DNA of 64,000 nucleotides from Scytonema millei VB511283 (lineage in GTDB: Bacteria; Cyanobacteriota; Cyanobacteriia; Cyanobacteriales; Chroococcidiopsidaceae): the NCBI RefSeq assembly GCF_000817735.3, contig NZ_JTJC03000008.1:1-64000 (forward strand), written 5' to 3'. The position numbers were made by a program, and so were the translations under genes. The notes below the pieces were generated by a model, which did not search any database, was not told the DNA's origin, and saw only the letters and a list, made by a program, of their open reading frames with translations. Of the stretch, positions 28,073-55,939 are shown in pieces; position 1 is the first letter of the stretch, and each line of letters starts with the position of its first letter.

Positions 28073-29734
28073 TTACTGAGTTAGGCTTTCCAAAGGTAGA
28101 GATTGCACTAAGCTCAAAGTTAAAGGCATTTGACTGATAAACCGAGCGTAATCAGCACTCAGATAGGGACGGTATTGCTGCGAACCTGCTACGTAAGTCT
28201 CAAAAAAAGCCACGCTCCAAGCCCCCAGATAGCGACGAGCCAAGGACGGATCTGGACCGATGACTGATTCGGGAATGGGTAAGGGTTCGCTACCTGGATC
28301 GGATTTATCGGCAGCGGAAAAATGGGTTCCACCTGCGAGTAAAAGGAGATATTTATTCTGAGCAGTCAGCCATGTAAAGGGCAAAATTTGCTCTGGTAAA
28401 GCTGGTGCAACTTTATCGTCGCTACTGCTGGCAATTGTCACGGGGATTTTTATTTGACTTAAACCAGCTTTACCAAAAAGGGCGCTGGCAATAGGATTAA
28501 TCGCGATCGCCGCCTTAATTCTTTTGTCTCGCAAATTATACTGGGTGCGCGGTAGTTCCAGCGTCCGACACTGGAGCAGTAAAGACAAATTAAAAGTCTC
28601 GCCCAAATTCTCACAGTCTTGTTGTAATTGGTTGAAATTCAACTTAGCACCTGCTAAAGCTAAGGCTGTATAACCACCATAGGAATGCCCGACAACTCCG
28701 ACTTGTTGTAAATTGAGGGCAAAAGATGAATCGGTGCGATCGAGTTGTGCCAAAACATCGAGCAAATACGATACATCCAGCGGACGATTGATAAACTCCC
28801 TTGGAGGCGTAACGGCAGTAGCGCGACCATTCAGGAGCGATCGCAATTGTTCGGCATTGCTATTTGGATGTTCGGGAACGGCAACGGCAAAACCATAACT
28901 AGCTAACTGCTGAGCGAGATATCCAAAGCTGTTGCGGTCTGAACCTAAACCGTGAGAGATGACTATGACAGGGGTGAGGAGTGAGGAGTGAGGGGTGAGG
29001 GAAGGAGGCGAGAGGTAAGAGTTTGGTAAATAAAGATCGGCAATAAAGGCGCGATCGCGGCTGCTGTCGTAAAGTTCTAAGGTGCGTTTCGTCCAAGTAA
29101 ATCTTCCTCGTTGGCGCAAGTCTGGTAGCTGGGAGAAATTGGCAGGCTGTTGGGCGATCGCAGCGGCAGCTGATTGTCTCTGCACTAGGGCGATCGCTTC
29201 GTTTGTGCGATTGATGACAGCTTGCAATTCTTCTACAATTTCTAAACTTTGCCCCAGATCGACTCGAATTCCATTCGTGGGAAACTGACGCAAGACATCA
29301 AGTAAGGTAAAGCCTTGGCGATTTTCTGCTGCTGCTAAGATCAGAGCCGAGCGAATGGCGTAAAATCCTGGAAGTGTTGCTTCAGTCCGAATCAGTTGTC
29401 CCAGTCGTTGTAATAAAGTTTCGCCAATTGAGGAGTAAAGAAATTGAGAGATTGCTACCGGACTCAGATCGACTGGTGTAGTCAGTATACCTCGCAGTCG
29501 CTCCAGCTGTGCGGGGGTGAGTCTGCGGGCGTAATCGATCAGTCCGCCTTCAATTTCGCCTGTTTTGGCAAACTTTGCCAAATCTTCGATCGCCACCGAA
29601 CTTTCAAAAGCACCGTATGTCGCGTAAATGCGATCGGCTGCGACTGCGGTTTGAAGCCCCGTTGCTGGAAATAATAATAAGGATGCAATGCTCGCGGATT
29701 TGAGCAGTTTTGAGGTGAAAAGTTTTTGCAACAC
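28073..29734 (-). CDS. DUF1400 / alpha-beta hydrolase, exported
   Basis: A signal peptide (1-32) precedes a DUF1400 domain (about 33-160) and an alpha/beta hydrolase domain with VIVISHGLGSDRNSFGYLAQQLASYGF, nucleophile GHSYGGY near 349 and GGTHFSAAD as the His motif. 553 residues; similar two-domain esterases occur in most cyanobacteria. A short repeat (LTPHSSLLTP) has been inserted in frame just before the first hydrolase strand. It follows the TamB-like gene by 14 nt and is co-transcribed. Confidence 0.88.
   Translation of the reverse strand: MLQKLFTSKLLKSASIASLLLFPATGLQTAVAADRIYATYGAFESSVAIEDLAKFAKTGEIEGGLIDYARRLTPAQLERLRGILTTPVDLSPVAISQFLYSSIGETLLQRLGQLIRTEATLPGFYAIRSALILAAAENRQGFTLLDVLRQFPTNGIRVDLGQSLEIVEELQAVINRTNEAIALVQRQSAAAAIAQQPANFSQLPDLRQRGRFTWTKRTLELYDSSRDRAFIADLYLPNSYLSPPSLTPHSSLLTPVIVISHGLGSDRNSFGYLAQQLASYGFAVAVPEHPNSNAEQLRSLLNGRATAVTPPREFINRPLDVSYLLDVLAQLDRTDSSFALNLQQVGVVGHSYGGYTALALAGAKLNFNQLQQDCENLGETFNLSLLLQCRTLELPRTQYNLRDKRIKAAIAINPIASALFGKAGLSQIKIPVTIASSSDDKVAPALPEQILPFTWLTAQNKYLLLLAGGTHFSAADKSDPGSEPLPIPESVIGPDPSLARRYLGAWSVAFFETYVAGSQQYRPYLSADYARFISQMPLTLSLVQSLPLESLTQ
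28966..29003. repeat. STRR (GAGGAGTGAGGAGTGAG type) inside coding sequence
   Basis: Heptamer copies of GAGGAGT/GAGGGGT in the DUF1400 hydrolase encode LTPHSSLLTP on the minus strand without breaking the frame. The same repeat lies in the histidine kinase gene near 54216-54256. Confidence 0.8.
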
Positions 29735-52530: not shown

Positions 52531-53631
52531 TTAATTGAGAAACAATTTCCCTAAATCTGTTTTGTCGGGAGTTTCCTGTATTTGCTTCTCCAACTCTTCT
52601 AAAAGCTGACACAAACGCAGACAACTAGTAGAGCGATGCTCCAGAGGAGCCGTTTCGCTAACGCCATTTTTGGCTTCTAACAAAGACTCGATCTCTTGAG
52701 CCAAGTGCGAGGCTTGAGTAAAACCAAAACTGCCTAAAGCACCTGCTAGTTTGTGAGCTTCTCGCACAGCTTGTTTTTGCAACTCAGGCGAAAGCGTACC
52801 GCGACATAAAGCTTCTACCGCTTGCTCTAACACCGCGAGGCGATCGCCGATTCCTGCTGTAAAAACTTCCCTAAATTTGACGACTACTGATAAAACTTCT
52901 TGCTGCATCTCATCCAAATCCGACGCAGTTGGTTCTGGATGAGAAGTTTCTGAATCTAGAGGTTTGAGACGATAGCCCAAACCGTAAACTGTTTCAATAA
53001 AATCCGTGGGCGCACCAGCAGTTTTGAGTTTGTGACGCAAGCTTTTGATGTAAGACTTGATTGTGTTCTCCTGCGGCGGGTCTTCTAAATTCCACAGGCG
53101 ATCGACGATCGCGCTGCGGCTAAATGTCCGTCGCGGGTTGCGGAGAAACAGCTCTAACAGTGTATACTCCTTTGGAGTTAACGGCAAAACTTGCTGCCCG
53201 TATGTCGCCTCGCAGCTACTCGGATCGAGCCGCAGATCGCCCCATTCTAATACTGGTGGTAAAGCGGTACTACCTCGACGCAATAAAGCGCGGACGCGAG
53301 CGATTAATTCGGGAAAATCAAACGGTTTGACGACATAATCATCCGCACCAGCATCTAATCCCACAACTTTATCAGAGCTGCTATCTTTCGCCGTCAGCAT
53401 CAGAATTGGTATGCGATCGCCTTTTTGCCTTAGTTGCCGACATAAACTCGTACCATCTAGTTTAGGCAACATGACATCGAGCAAAATTAAATCGTAGCTG
53501 AATGCTGTGGCTAATTCCCAGCCCTCTTGACCGTCAGTGGCAATATCAACAAGACAATGCTGCTGTTGTGCCAGCGTTGCCGCAACAGCTTGAGCTATGG
53601 AATTATCGTCCTCAACCACGAGAATTTTCAT
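52531..53631 (-). CDS. OmpR-type response regulator with C-terminal HPt domain
   Basis: 366 residues from ATG 53631 (MKILVVEDDN). Receiver domain with Asp52 and Lys102 in VVKPF; winged-helix domain (about 127-225; LTPKEYTLLELFLRNP, TVYGLGYRLKP); then a coil and an HPt domain with His293 in EAHKLAGALGSFG. It follows the hybrid kinase gene on the same strand, so the HPt could relay from the kinase receiver to this receiver. A plausible activator of the TCCAC-repeat sites (inference). Confidence 0.92.
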   Translation of the reverse strand: MKILVVEDDNSIAQAVAATLAQQQHCLVDIATDGQEGWELATAFSYDLILLDVMLPKLDGTSLCRQLRQKGDRIPILMLTAKDSSSDKVVGLDAGADDYVVKPFDFPELIARVRALLRRGSTALPPVLEWGDLRLDPSSCEATYGQQVLPLTPKEYTLLELFLRNPRRTFSRSAIVDRLWNLEDPPQENTIKSYIKSLRHKLKTAGAPTDFIETVYGLGYRLKPLDSETSHPEPTASDLDEMQQEVLSVVVKFREVFTAGIGDRLAVLEQAVEALCRGTLSPELQKQAVREAHKLAGALGSFGFTQASHLAQEIESLLEAKNGVSETAPLEHRSTSCLRLCQLLEELEKQIQETPDKTDLGKLFLN

Positions 53632-53794
53632 CGGCGATCGCCTACCTCTGATGAAATTATTTGTGACAACAGTAGACTCTCTAACTCCACTAAAGACTTT
53701 TTTAGCTGCACCAAACATCTATCAAAAGTAACGCAGCTTAATCTTTAGACAGATAGAATACTACATTAAATCTCCTCAATTTTATTGATAGGGA

Positions 53795-53828
53795 TGCCCT
53801 ACACCCCACACCCCACACCCCACACCCT
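53795..53828. repeat. STRR (CACACCC)n
   Basis: Four copies of a CCCCACA heptamer in the gap between the kinase and response regulator genes. Confidence 0.8.
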
Positions 53829-53830
53829 TC

Positions 53831-55939
53831 TTAAAGTTTTCCAGCCATTTTAGCTAAACTCGTCACCACAGCTACTAATTCAGCTGCTCTGATTGGTTTA
53901 GCGACGTGGAGCTGAAACCCTTCTGCTAGGGCTTTGGTGTAATCTTCTTCTCTGGCATATCCTGTGAGTGCTACGGCGGGAATAGTTCCGCCCAGTTGGG
54001 GTTCCAGTTCTCTGATTTTACGGATCAGCGCATAGCCATCCTCCCCTGGCATTCCAATGTCGCTGATGAGTACATCCGGTCTTTGTCGTTCTATTGCCTC
54101 AAGTGCCTCCTCCACCGAACCAACGGCAATAACTTCTGCGCCTGACTCTTCCAGTACGATCGCAATCCACTGCCGCGCGTCAGCTTCGTCATCCACAACT
54201 AATACTCGCAAGCCATGAAGAGAGGGGTGAGGAGTGAGAAGTGAGGAGTGAGGGGTAAGTTTTTCTTCTGCTTCCCCTGCTCCAGATACTCTTTCTGAAA
54301 TGGGGAGTTCGATTGTAAATGTAGTACCTTGTCCTCTGCCTGGACTATCGACGCGAATTGTGCCACCGTGTAGTTCGATTAAGTGGCGGGCGATCGCCAA
54401 ACCCAAGCCCAAGCCTTTATTCGATCTAACGCTCGTGCTATCTGCCTGACGAAAGCGATCGAAAACGTAGGGGAGAAATTCAGGACTGATACCTATGCCC
54501 GTATCGGTAACTTGGATTTGGGCAAAGTTGGTAGTTGGTAGTTGGTAATTGGTAGTAGACGCTGGCGCTACACTGCGTGAAGGTAGTTGGTCTTCAGTTA
54601 AACTTTTGACTTTTAACTTTTGACTTTTGACTTTTTCCAGCCGCACCTCAACTCTTCCCCCTTCAGGAGTAAATTTGATTGCATTGGAAAGTAAATTCCA
54701 CACCACTTGTTGCAAGCGTTCTGCGTCACCCCAGATAATGGATGAGCGATCGCTATCTCCCGACTCCCGATTCCCGACTCCCGACTCCCGCATAAATTCC
54801 AAAGCGATCGCTTTCTCATTAGCAGTTGGCTCTACGACTTCAATTGCTGCGGTGATGACTCTGGCGAGATCGACTCGATCGAAATTGAGCGGAATATCTC
54901 CCCTGACAATGCGGGAAATATCGAGCAGGTCTTCAATGAGTTGCATCTGCAAGGTGGCATTGCGCTCGATTGTCTCCATTGCTAGAGTCGCTCGACCTTC
55001 ATCTAACATACCCGTTTGCAACATTCCAGCCCAACCGACGATCGCCGTCATCGGAGTACGTAATTCGTGGGACACTACAGCTAAGAAATCATCCTTGGCG
55101 CGGTTGGCTGCTTCGGCTTGGGCGCGGGCAGCTTGTTCGCGTAGTAGCAATTCCTCCCGTTCTTCTTCAGCTAACTTGCGCCCTGTAATGTCTTGCATAA
55201 TTTTGGCAAAACCCCGCAGATTTCCACTCTCATCTCGCAAGACAGTGATGATGCAGTGAGTCCAAATGTACGTACCATCCTTACGAATATGCCAGCGATT
55301 CTCTCTCGAAAAACCTTCGGCGATCGCCATTTGTAGCACTTGGGCGGGTAAGCCTTGCCGTATTGCTTCTGATGTAAAAATCCGCGCAAAAGGTTGACCG
55401 ATGATTTCTGCCTCTGAGTAGCCTAGCATCCGCTCCGAACCAACATTCCAACTAGCAAAGATCCCGTTTGGGTCTAGCATGAAAATGGCGTATTCTGTGA
55501 CTCCTTCTACTAATATGCGATAGCGTTCTTCGCTGCGGCGCAGGCTTTCTTGGCTTTGACGTAAAAACTCATAATTTTGTTGGGCTTCCCGCGCATTGCG
55601 TTCGGCTATTTCTTGGGTAGAGCGCAATCTTGTGTTGAGGTAGCTAATCAGTAGTGCTACTAGCACAAACTGGAGTAACCCATCGATCCCATCTCGCTCG
55701 ACTGCCAGCGAATAAAATGGGGGAACAAAGAAGTAGGCACACAATACAGAGGACAATGCAATGGCAAATAATCCAGGTCCCATACTGCCATACCAGGAAC
55801 TCACCATCACCGCAGCTAGGAATAGTGGATAGAGATGAGGCTGGATCAGCCACCAGATCAGTTGTGTTAAGAGAAAAGCAACAGCAACGGCGATAACAGC
55901 AACGCCGTAGCCCTTAAAGTGACGTATCGAACCGAGCAT
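53831..55939 (-). CDS. Hybrid sensor histidine kinase (DUF4118-PAS-HisKA-HATPase-REC)
   Basis: 702 residues: DUF4118-like membrane domain (1-105), PAS (about 135-255), HisKA with His291 (SHELRTP), HATPase (N box WNLLSNAIKF, DTGIGI, GLGLGLAI) and a C-terminal receiver with Asp627 in SDIGMPGEDG. Four STRR insertions lie in the gene at residues about 384-396, 436-448, 459-472 and 561-574; all preserve the frame. First gene of a pair with the OmpR/HPt regulator, forming a phosphorelay. Confidence 0.93.
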   Translation of the reverse strand: MLGSIRHFKGYGVAVIAVAVAFLLTQLIWWLIQPHLYPLFLAAVMVSSWYGSMGPGLFAIALSSVLCAYFFVPPFYSLAVERDGIDGLLQFVLVALLISYLNTRLRSTQEIAERNAREAQQNYEFLRQSQESLRRSEERYRILVEGVTEYAIFMLDPNGIFASWNVGSERMLGYSEAEIIGQPFARIFTSEAIRQGLPAQVLQMAIAEGFSRENRWHIRKDGTYIWTHCIITVLRDESGNLRGFAKIMQDITGRKLAEEEREELLLREQAARAQAEAANRAKDDFLAVVSHELRTPMTAIVGWAGMLQTGMLDEGRATLAMETIERNATLQMQLIEDLLDISRIVRGDIPLNFDRVDLARVITAAIEVVEPTANEKAIALEFMRESGVGNRESGDSDRSSIIWGDAERLQQVVWNLLSNAIKFTPEGGRVEVRLEKVKSQKLKVKSLTEDQLPSRSVAPASTTNYQLPTTNFAQIQVTDTGIGISPEFLPYVFDRFRQADSTSVRSNKGLGLGLAIARHLIELHGGTIRVDSPGRGQGTTFTIELPISERVSGAGEAEEKLTPHSSLLTPHPSLHGLRVLVVDDEADARQWIAIVLEESGAEVIAVGSVEEALEAIERQRPDVLISDIGMPGEDGYALIRKIRELEPQLGGTIPAVALTGYAREEDYTKALAEGFQLHVAKPIRAAELVAVVTSLAKMAGKL
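54216..54256. repeat. STRR inside histidine kinase gene (1)
   Basis: GAGGGGT/GAGGAGT/GAGAAGT heptamers encode LTPHSSLLTPHPSL between the HATPase and receiver domains. Confidence 0.8.
54529..54564. repeat. STRR inside histidine kinase gene (2)
   Basis: GGTAGTT/GGTAATT heptamers encode TTNYQLPTTN in the HATPase domain, next to a TGGCGCTACACTGCGTGAAG unit, which I suspect is another dispersed repeat. Confidence 0.75.
54597..54637. repeat. STRR inside histidine kinase gene (3)
   Basis: TTTTGAC/TTTTAAC heptamers encode KVKSQKLKVKSL just after the N box strand. Confidence 0.8.
54758..54793. repeat. STRR inside histidine kinase gene (4)
   Basis: TCCCGAC/TCCCGAT heptamers encode RESGVGNRESGDS before the N box. 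Confidence 0.8.

Follow-up and report, generated by a model that had tools for sequence, protein, structure and literature searches.

Four tandem heptamer arrays lie in frame inside the gene of a hybrid histidine kinase. They are best explained, with a probability of about 0.75, as tolerated passengers: STRR arrays spread and resize neutrally in this genome, and translation filters them for reading frame and for positions in loops. The original prediction had placed four heptamer repeats, in frame, in one histidine kinase gene. TRF detected four period-7 arrays there, and a single open frame on the complementary strand (53831-55939) runs through all of them. The arrays encode the peptides that had been listed, and the four repeat families are distinct as claimed, with the TRF units GAGGAGT (54222-54253), AGTTGGT (54526-54556), ACTTTTG (54602-54635) and CTCCCGA (54757-54790). 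Each array has 4.4-4.9 copies, with 88-92% matches. The features of the locus, numbered in the window (the whole stretch of 64,000 nucleotides that was analysed), are:

53831-55939, complementary strand: gene of a hybrid histidine kinase of 702 aa, with the Pfam architecture DUF4118 - PAS - HisKA - HATPase_c - receiver
54908-55099, complementary strand: HisKA domain, uninterrupted (Pfam PF00512)
54757-54790, complementary strand: site A, CGGGAGT heptamers encoding RESGVGNRESG, in the loop just before the N box (TRF)
54299-54730, complementary strand: HATPase_c domain, 144 aa against a profile of 111 positions (Pfam PF02518)
54602-54635, complementary strand: site B1, AAAAGTC heptamers encoding EKVKSQKLKVKS, in the beta-hairpin between the N box and DTGIGI (TRF)
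54558-54581, complementary strand: dispersed element of 24 nt, TTCACGCAGTGTAGCGCCAGCGTC, not a heptamer, within the heptamers of site B
54526-54556, complementary strand: site B2, AACTACC heptamers encoding TTNYQLPTTNF, in the same hairpin as B1 (TRF)
54222-54253, complementary strand: site C, ACTCCTC heptamers encoding (LT)PHSSLLTPHPS, in the linker between HATPase_c and receiver (TRF)
53864-54205, complementary strand: receiver domain (Pfam PF00072)
53797-53827, complementary strand: fifth heptamer array, ACACCCC, intergenic, directly after the kinase stop codon (TRF)

In the kinase, HisKA, HATPase_c and receiver domains are all present with their motifs, which places it among the hybrid histidine kinases; the phosphoacceptor His, the N box, DTGIGI and GLGLG are intact and the receiver Asp is conserved. 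The dN/dS of the gene is 0.12-0.17 against three relatives, i.e. it is under purifying selection, which points to a functional gene. A putative OmpR-like response regulator, named by its sequence, is encoded downstream on the same strand (52531-53718).

In terms of structure the four arrays make up three sites (A, B and C), since B1 and B2 share one hairpin between the N box and DTGIGI. The inserts of site B account for the excess length of the HATPase_c domain over its profile. The added loop had been put at about 40 residues, which was too many: the N box and DxGxG are 52 residues apart, where the shortest kinases of the genus have 19-20, an excess of about 32. Part of this excess is the 24-nt element (54558-54581), which encodes part of LPSRSVAPAS. 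This element has more copies in 1.2 Mb of the source genome and in two other species of the genus, nearly all of them within heptamer arrays.

We compared the gene of the source genome (G000) with its orthologues in these two species (G001, 87% identity; G002, 85%), in four genomes from other genera of the family (74-78%), and in several Nostocales (60-67%). At site A, the source gene reads CGGGAGTCGGGAGTCGGGAATCGGGAGTCGGGAGATAGCGATCGC where Gloeocapsopsis (G003) has CAGGAGTTAGGAGACAGCGATCGC, and it is exactly 21 nt, or three heptamers, longer. The same site holds heptamers and a palindrome in G001, quite different repeats in G002, and nothing in Nostoc. The AAAAGTC array of site B1 is common to G002 only, and is absent from G001 and Nostoc. 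The AACTACC heptamers are interrupted by the 24-nt element in G000 and G003; G002 and G014 lack it, their sequence being shorter at this point by exactly 24 nt. Site C has different repeats in G000, in G001 and G002, and in Nostoc. Site A is absent from the orthologues of Nostoc, Spirirestis, Calothrix and others, in which sites B and C are short or hold different residues. As judged from these alignments, the kinase arrays are shown to be lineage-specific insertions, as had been predicted: we looked for the same residues in all orthologues, and this was not the case. On the same comparison, the same loops of the kinase have been filled more than once.

Other repeats were seen in and around these genes. 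The ACACCCC family that follows the kinase stop codon is also found downstream of the G001 orthologue. The palindrome at site A of that orthologue (L007) is the element GTAGGGGCGCAAAGCTTTGCGCCCGTAC, in frame inside a CGGGAGT array. Three Nostoc orthologues (L092, L093 and L098) have an 8-bp tandem repeat, AGCAGAGG, beside heptamers in the linker between kinase and receiver.

We surveyed 1.2 Mb of the 5.97 Mb of the source genome (contig 1), with ORFs called by length and no gene finder. This identified 581 period-7 arrays in 71 families. Simulated first-order Markov sequence of the same length (1.2 Mb), with the genome's dinucleotide composition, yielded no such array at the score used in the survey, hence the arrays are not due to chance. 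They are tandem heptamers in several copies, dispersed and mostly intergenic; we assigned them to the STRR by these features and not by published consensus units. Twenty of the 71 families hold about 80% of the arrays, which suggests copying between sites. Whereas 451 arrays (78%) were outside long ORFs, 130 were inside, with at least two arrays in 33 ORFs, and neighbouring arrays within one gene are not independent. The kinase is therefore one of many hosts, and the survey rules out that it is unique. Arrays were inside genes in 41 out of 145 cases for families open on both strands, in 37 out of 369 for those open on one, and in 4 out of 67 for those open on none.

The hosts include housekeeping genes, in which the arrays sit mostly between Pfam domains. 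The insert lies between the 5'-3' and 3'-5' exonuclease domains in DNA polymerase I, after the catalytic domain in the topoisomerase A subunit, between the two enzymes of PutA, in the linker of MutL, and between NusB and the rest in RsmB. A class I tRNA synthetase and NAD synthetase are further hosts. A CobN/Mg-chelatase gene (G000:C1:328054-332322) contains five arrays and encodes 1422 aa, whereas the open frames of many relatives have about 1230-1290 aa (about 130-190 aa shorter). Two DUF1400 alpha/beta hydrolases have arrays just before the hydrolase domain (window positions 28970-29001, and G000:C1:757878-759755). In G001, the topoisomerase A-subunit gene (L280) loses its frame precisely at an ACACCCC array (G001:C1, about 332870-332900). 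The arrays of G000 and G002 at this site consist of AATTCCG units and are in frame, and the break in G001 is possibly an assembly error.

The AlphaFold (AF2) model of the kinase was made from 16 sequences and has a mean pLDDT of 65, hence it is of local use only. Confidence is very low at residues 387-396, 440-469 and 549-571, which correspond to sites A, B and C, and the flanking strands are more confident. Site A is a loop between the strands 379-384 and 401-404, with pLDDT below 50 at 387-396, and site B a loop at 440-469 with pLDDT of about 30; all inserts are within loops of pLDDT of about 30-50. The solved kinases VicK/CovS and SrrB can be aligned with the regions flanking site B, and have there a turn of a few residues in place of about 34. 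The model thus shows the inserts in three predicted surface loops or linkers. Of the 12 kinase-like ORFs scanned within the survey, five have an array in the same hairpin between the N box and DxGxG, and the gap between these motifs ranges from 19 to 67 residues across the 12.

Across species, the sites of arrays are retained even as their units mutate or give way to others. An array was found at the orthologous coding site of another species in 53 out of 59 cases (90%), against 43 out of 472 for control intervals shifted by 500-1200 nt. At the occupied sites, the units differed by zero bases in 22 cases, by one in 13, and by at least two in 18, which is closer than under random pairing. Compared with the sequence that they hold, the sites are old: the units acquire mutations and become homogenised, and some have given way to others. 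Our notion of wholesale family replacement was softened accordingly, as identical units, or units one base apart, are more frequent among orthologous arrays than among random pairs.

The conservation of sites counts against the neutral explanation, since some of the loops could be used. The inserts might have been kept because they tune the geometry between kinase and receiver or the dynamics of the ATP-binding domain, and the same loops do hold different heptamer families in several lineages and in paralogous kinases. Yet, neither the length nor the sequence of the inserts is conserved, they are predicted to be disordered, and similar inserts in the linkers of unrelated enzymes are what tolerance would give. 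We therefore regard such tuning as unlikely. A broader proposal, to which we give somewhat less than even odds, is that across the genus heptamer arrays are an ongoing, genome-wide source of new loop peptides for core enzymes, with sites that last for long, exchanged families, and frame-compatible heptapeptide cassettes.

Arrays in genes nearly always keep the frame when they change length. We anchored the flanks of array clusters in the syntenic DNA of G001 and G002, and defined interior coding arrays as those lying 90 nt or more inward from the ends of an ORF of at least 200 aa. Non-zero length differences were multiples of three in 46 of the 49 coding cases, against 62 of the 196 clearly intergenic ones, the latter being the chance value (Fisher P = 3e-16, which is optimistic because one and the same G000 allele enters the comparisons with both G001 and G002 and some clusters lie in one gene, although the contrast is large). 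The ORFs were picked for being open in G000, a choice that does not constrain the lengths in the other species to multiples of three. The commonest single step at coding arrays was 21 nt, i.e. three heptamers. Two of the three exceptions are in one frame by tblastn and look like anchor artefacts, and the third is the topoisomerase frameshift of G001. Hence, length changes of coding arrays in the surveyed genome are almost confined to multiples of three bases.

This result bears on the proposal that the gene is a contingency locus, where changes by single units would switch the frame of the kinase on and off. A change by a single 7-nt unit necessarily alters the frame. In the G001 kinase the frame is lost precisely at site C, with 563 aa followed by the receiver in a different frame, and the topoisomerase A-subunit gene of that species is out of frame at its own array; slippage by single units would leave such a pattern. 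However, the original suggestion of a phase-variable frame finds no support in the present data, since the frameshifts of one relative, G001, are not clearly concentrated at arrays: 1/19 genes with arrays and 6/186 without were frameshifted in G001. The counts were 1/24 and 2/344 in G002. The rate among array-free genes indicates that frameshifts are generally more frequent in G001, and those of this genome are probably assembly indels. For this reason we set aside phase variation at site C, where the break may be an assembly error. The arrays of the kinase have only 4-5 imperfect copies, and the frame was kept in nearly all length changes, so that we consider switching very unlikely. That the residues are ancestral low-complexity sequence instead of insertions is extremely improbable: some inserts are common to G000 and G002, but site A is missing from the orthologues of Nostoc, Calothrix, Spirirestis and further genera of the family, in which B and C are shorter or hold different residues, and orthologues lacking site A and the nested 24-nt element refute this reading for both.

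We favour neutral spread under a filter of translation, which might proceed as follows. The arrays of the kinase would be members of the abundant heptamer families of the genome that landed in a gene. Arrays could be seeded at dispersed places when existing families are copied or when slippage occurs on short matches, and slippage would then lengthen and shorten them. As 7 and 3 have no common factor, a run of three units passes through every frame and encodes a single heptapeptide cycle, so that any stop-free strand of a family is translatable when the units number a multiple of three. Selection would purge the arrays that break the frame or strike the folded core. The kinase would most likely be normal in function, with longer loops that are predicted to be disordered, and its inserts would be passengers and not regulators.

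These arrays amount to a natural insertion-scanning experiment, in which the tolerated inserts of dozens of housekeeping proteins reveal where loops are permissive. The contrast between coding and intergenic length changes is a direct measure of selection on slippage. We found no report of this contrast, or of the recurrent use of the same loops, in the open-access literature. Repeats inflate the annotated lengths and domain models of such cyanobacteria, and apparent frameshifts at array sites call for checks at the level of reads.

The STRR heptamer repeats of cyanobacteria were reportedly described by Mazel et al. in 1990. The arrays studied here resemble them in their period of 7, their 4-5 copies, their many dispersed families, and their location, 78% being outside ORFs. 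They differ in that they were traced in protein genes, with lengths that keep the frame, positions in loops, and turnover of units at kept sites. Elhai et al. are said to have found, in 2008, small dispersed repeats (SDR) within heptamer arrays of Nostoc. The 24-nt element is similarly dispersed and embedded in heptamers, and we liken it to this class of 20-30 nt by description, not by sequence.

Heptamers within genes have been reported before. Vioque 1997, on STRRs in the functional RNA gene rnpB, is listed among the references of PMC4748335. In Nostoc PCC 7120, 68% of the GGGGA(C/T)T arrays are intergenic (PMC4692102), and thus about a third are not. TAACTGA heptamers occur within ORFs of Beggiatoaceae and some cyanobacteria, mostly at the ends of proteins (PMC4679880). 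They too are translatable only in the stop-free orientation, and are thought to succeed at the protein periphery (PMC4679880). However, they affect mostly hypothetical proteins and termini, whereas here many families also occupy interior loops of core enzymes. The best functional parallel is the Rickettsia palindromic elements (Ogata et al. 2000), which are, in the account given in PMC10969869, in-frame dispersed repeats in unrelated genes, presumed to be compatible with the fold. In-frame insertion into protein genes at tolerated positions is found here as well. The Rickettsia elements are palindromes of about 150 bp with a conserved peptide, whereas ours are short tandem heptamers. Hence, the inserts of the kinase would work like Rickettsia palindromic elements without being such elements.
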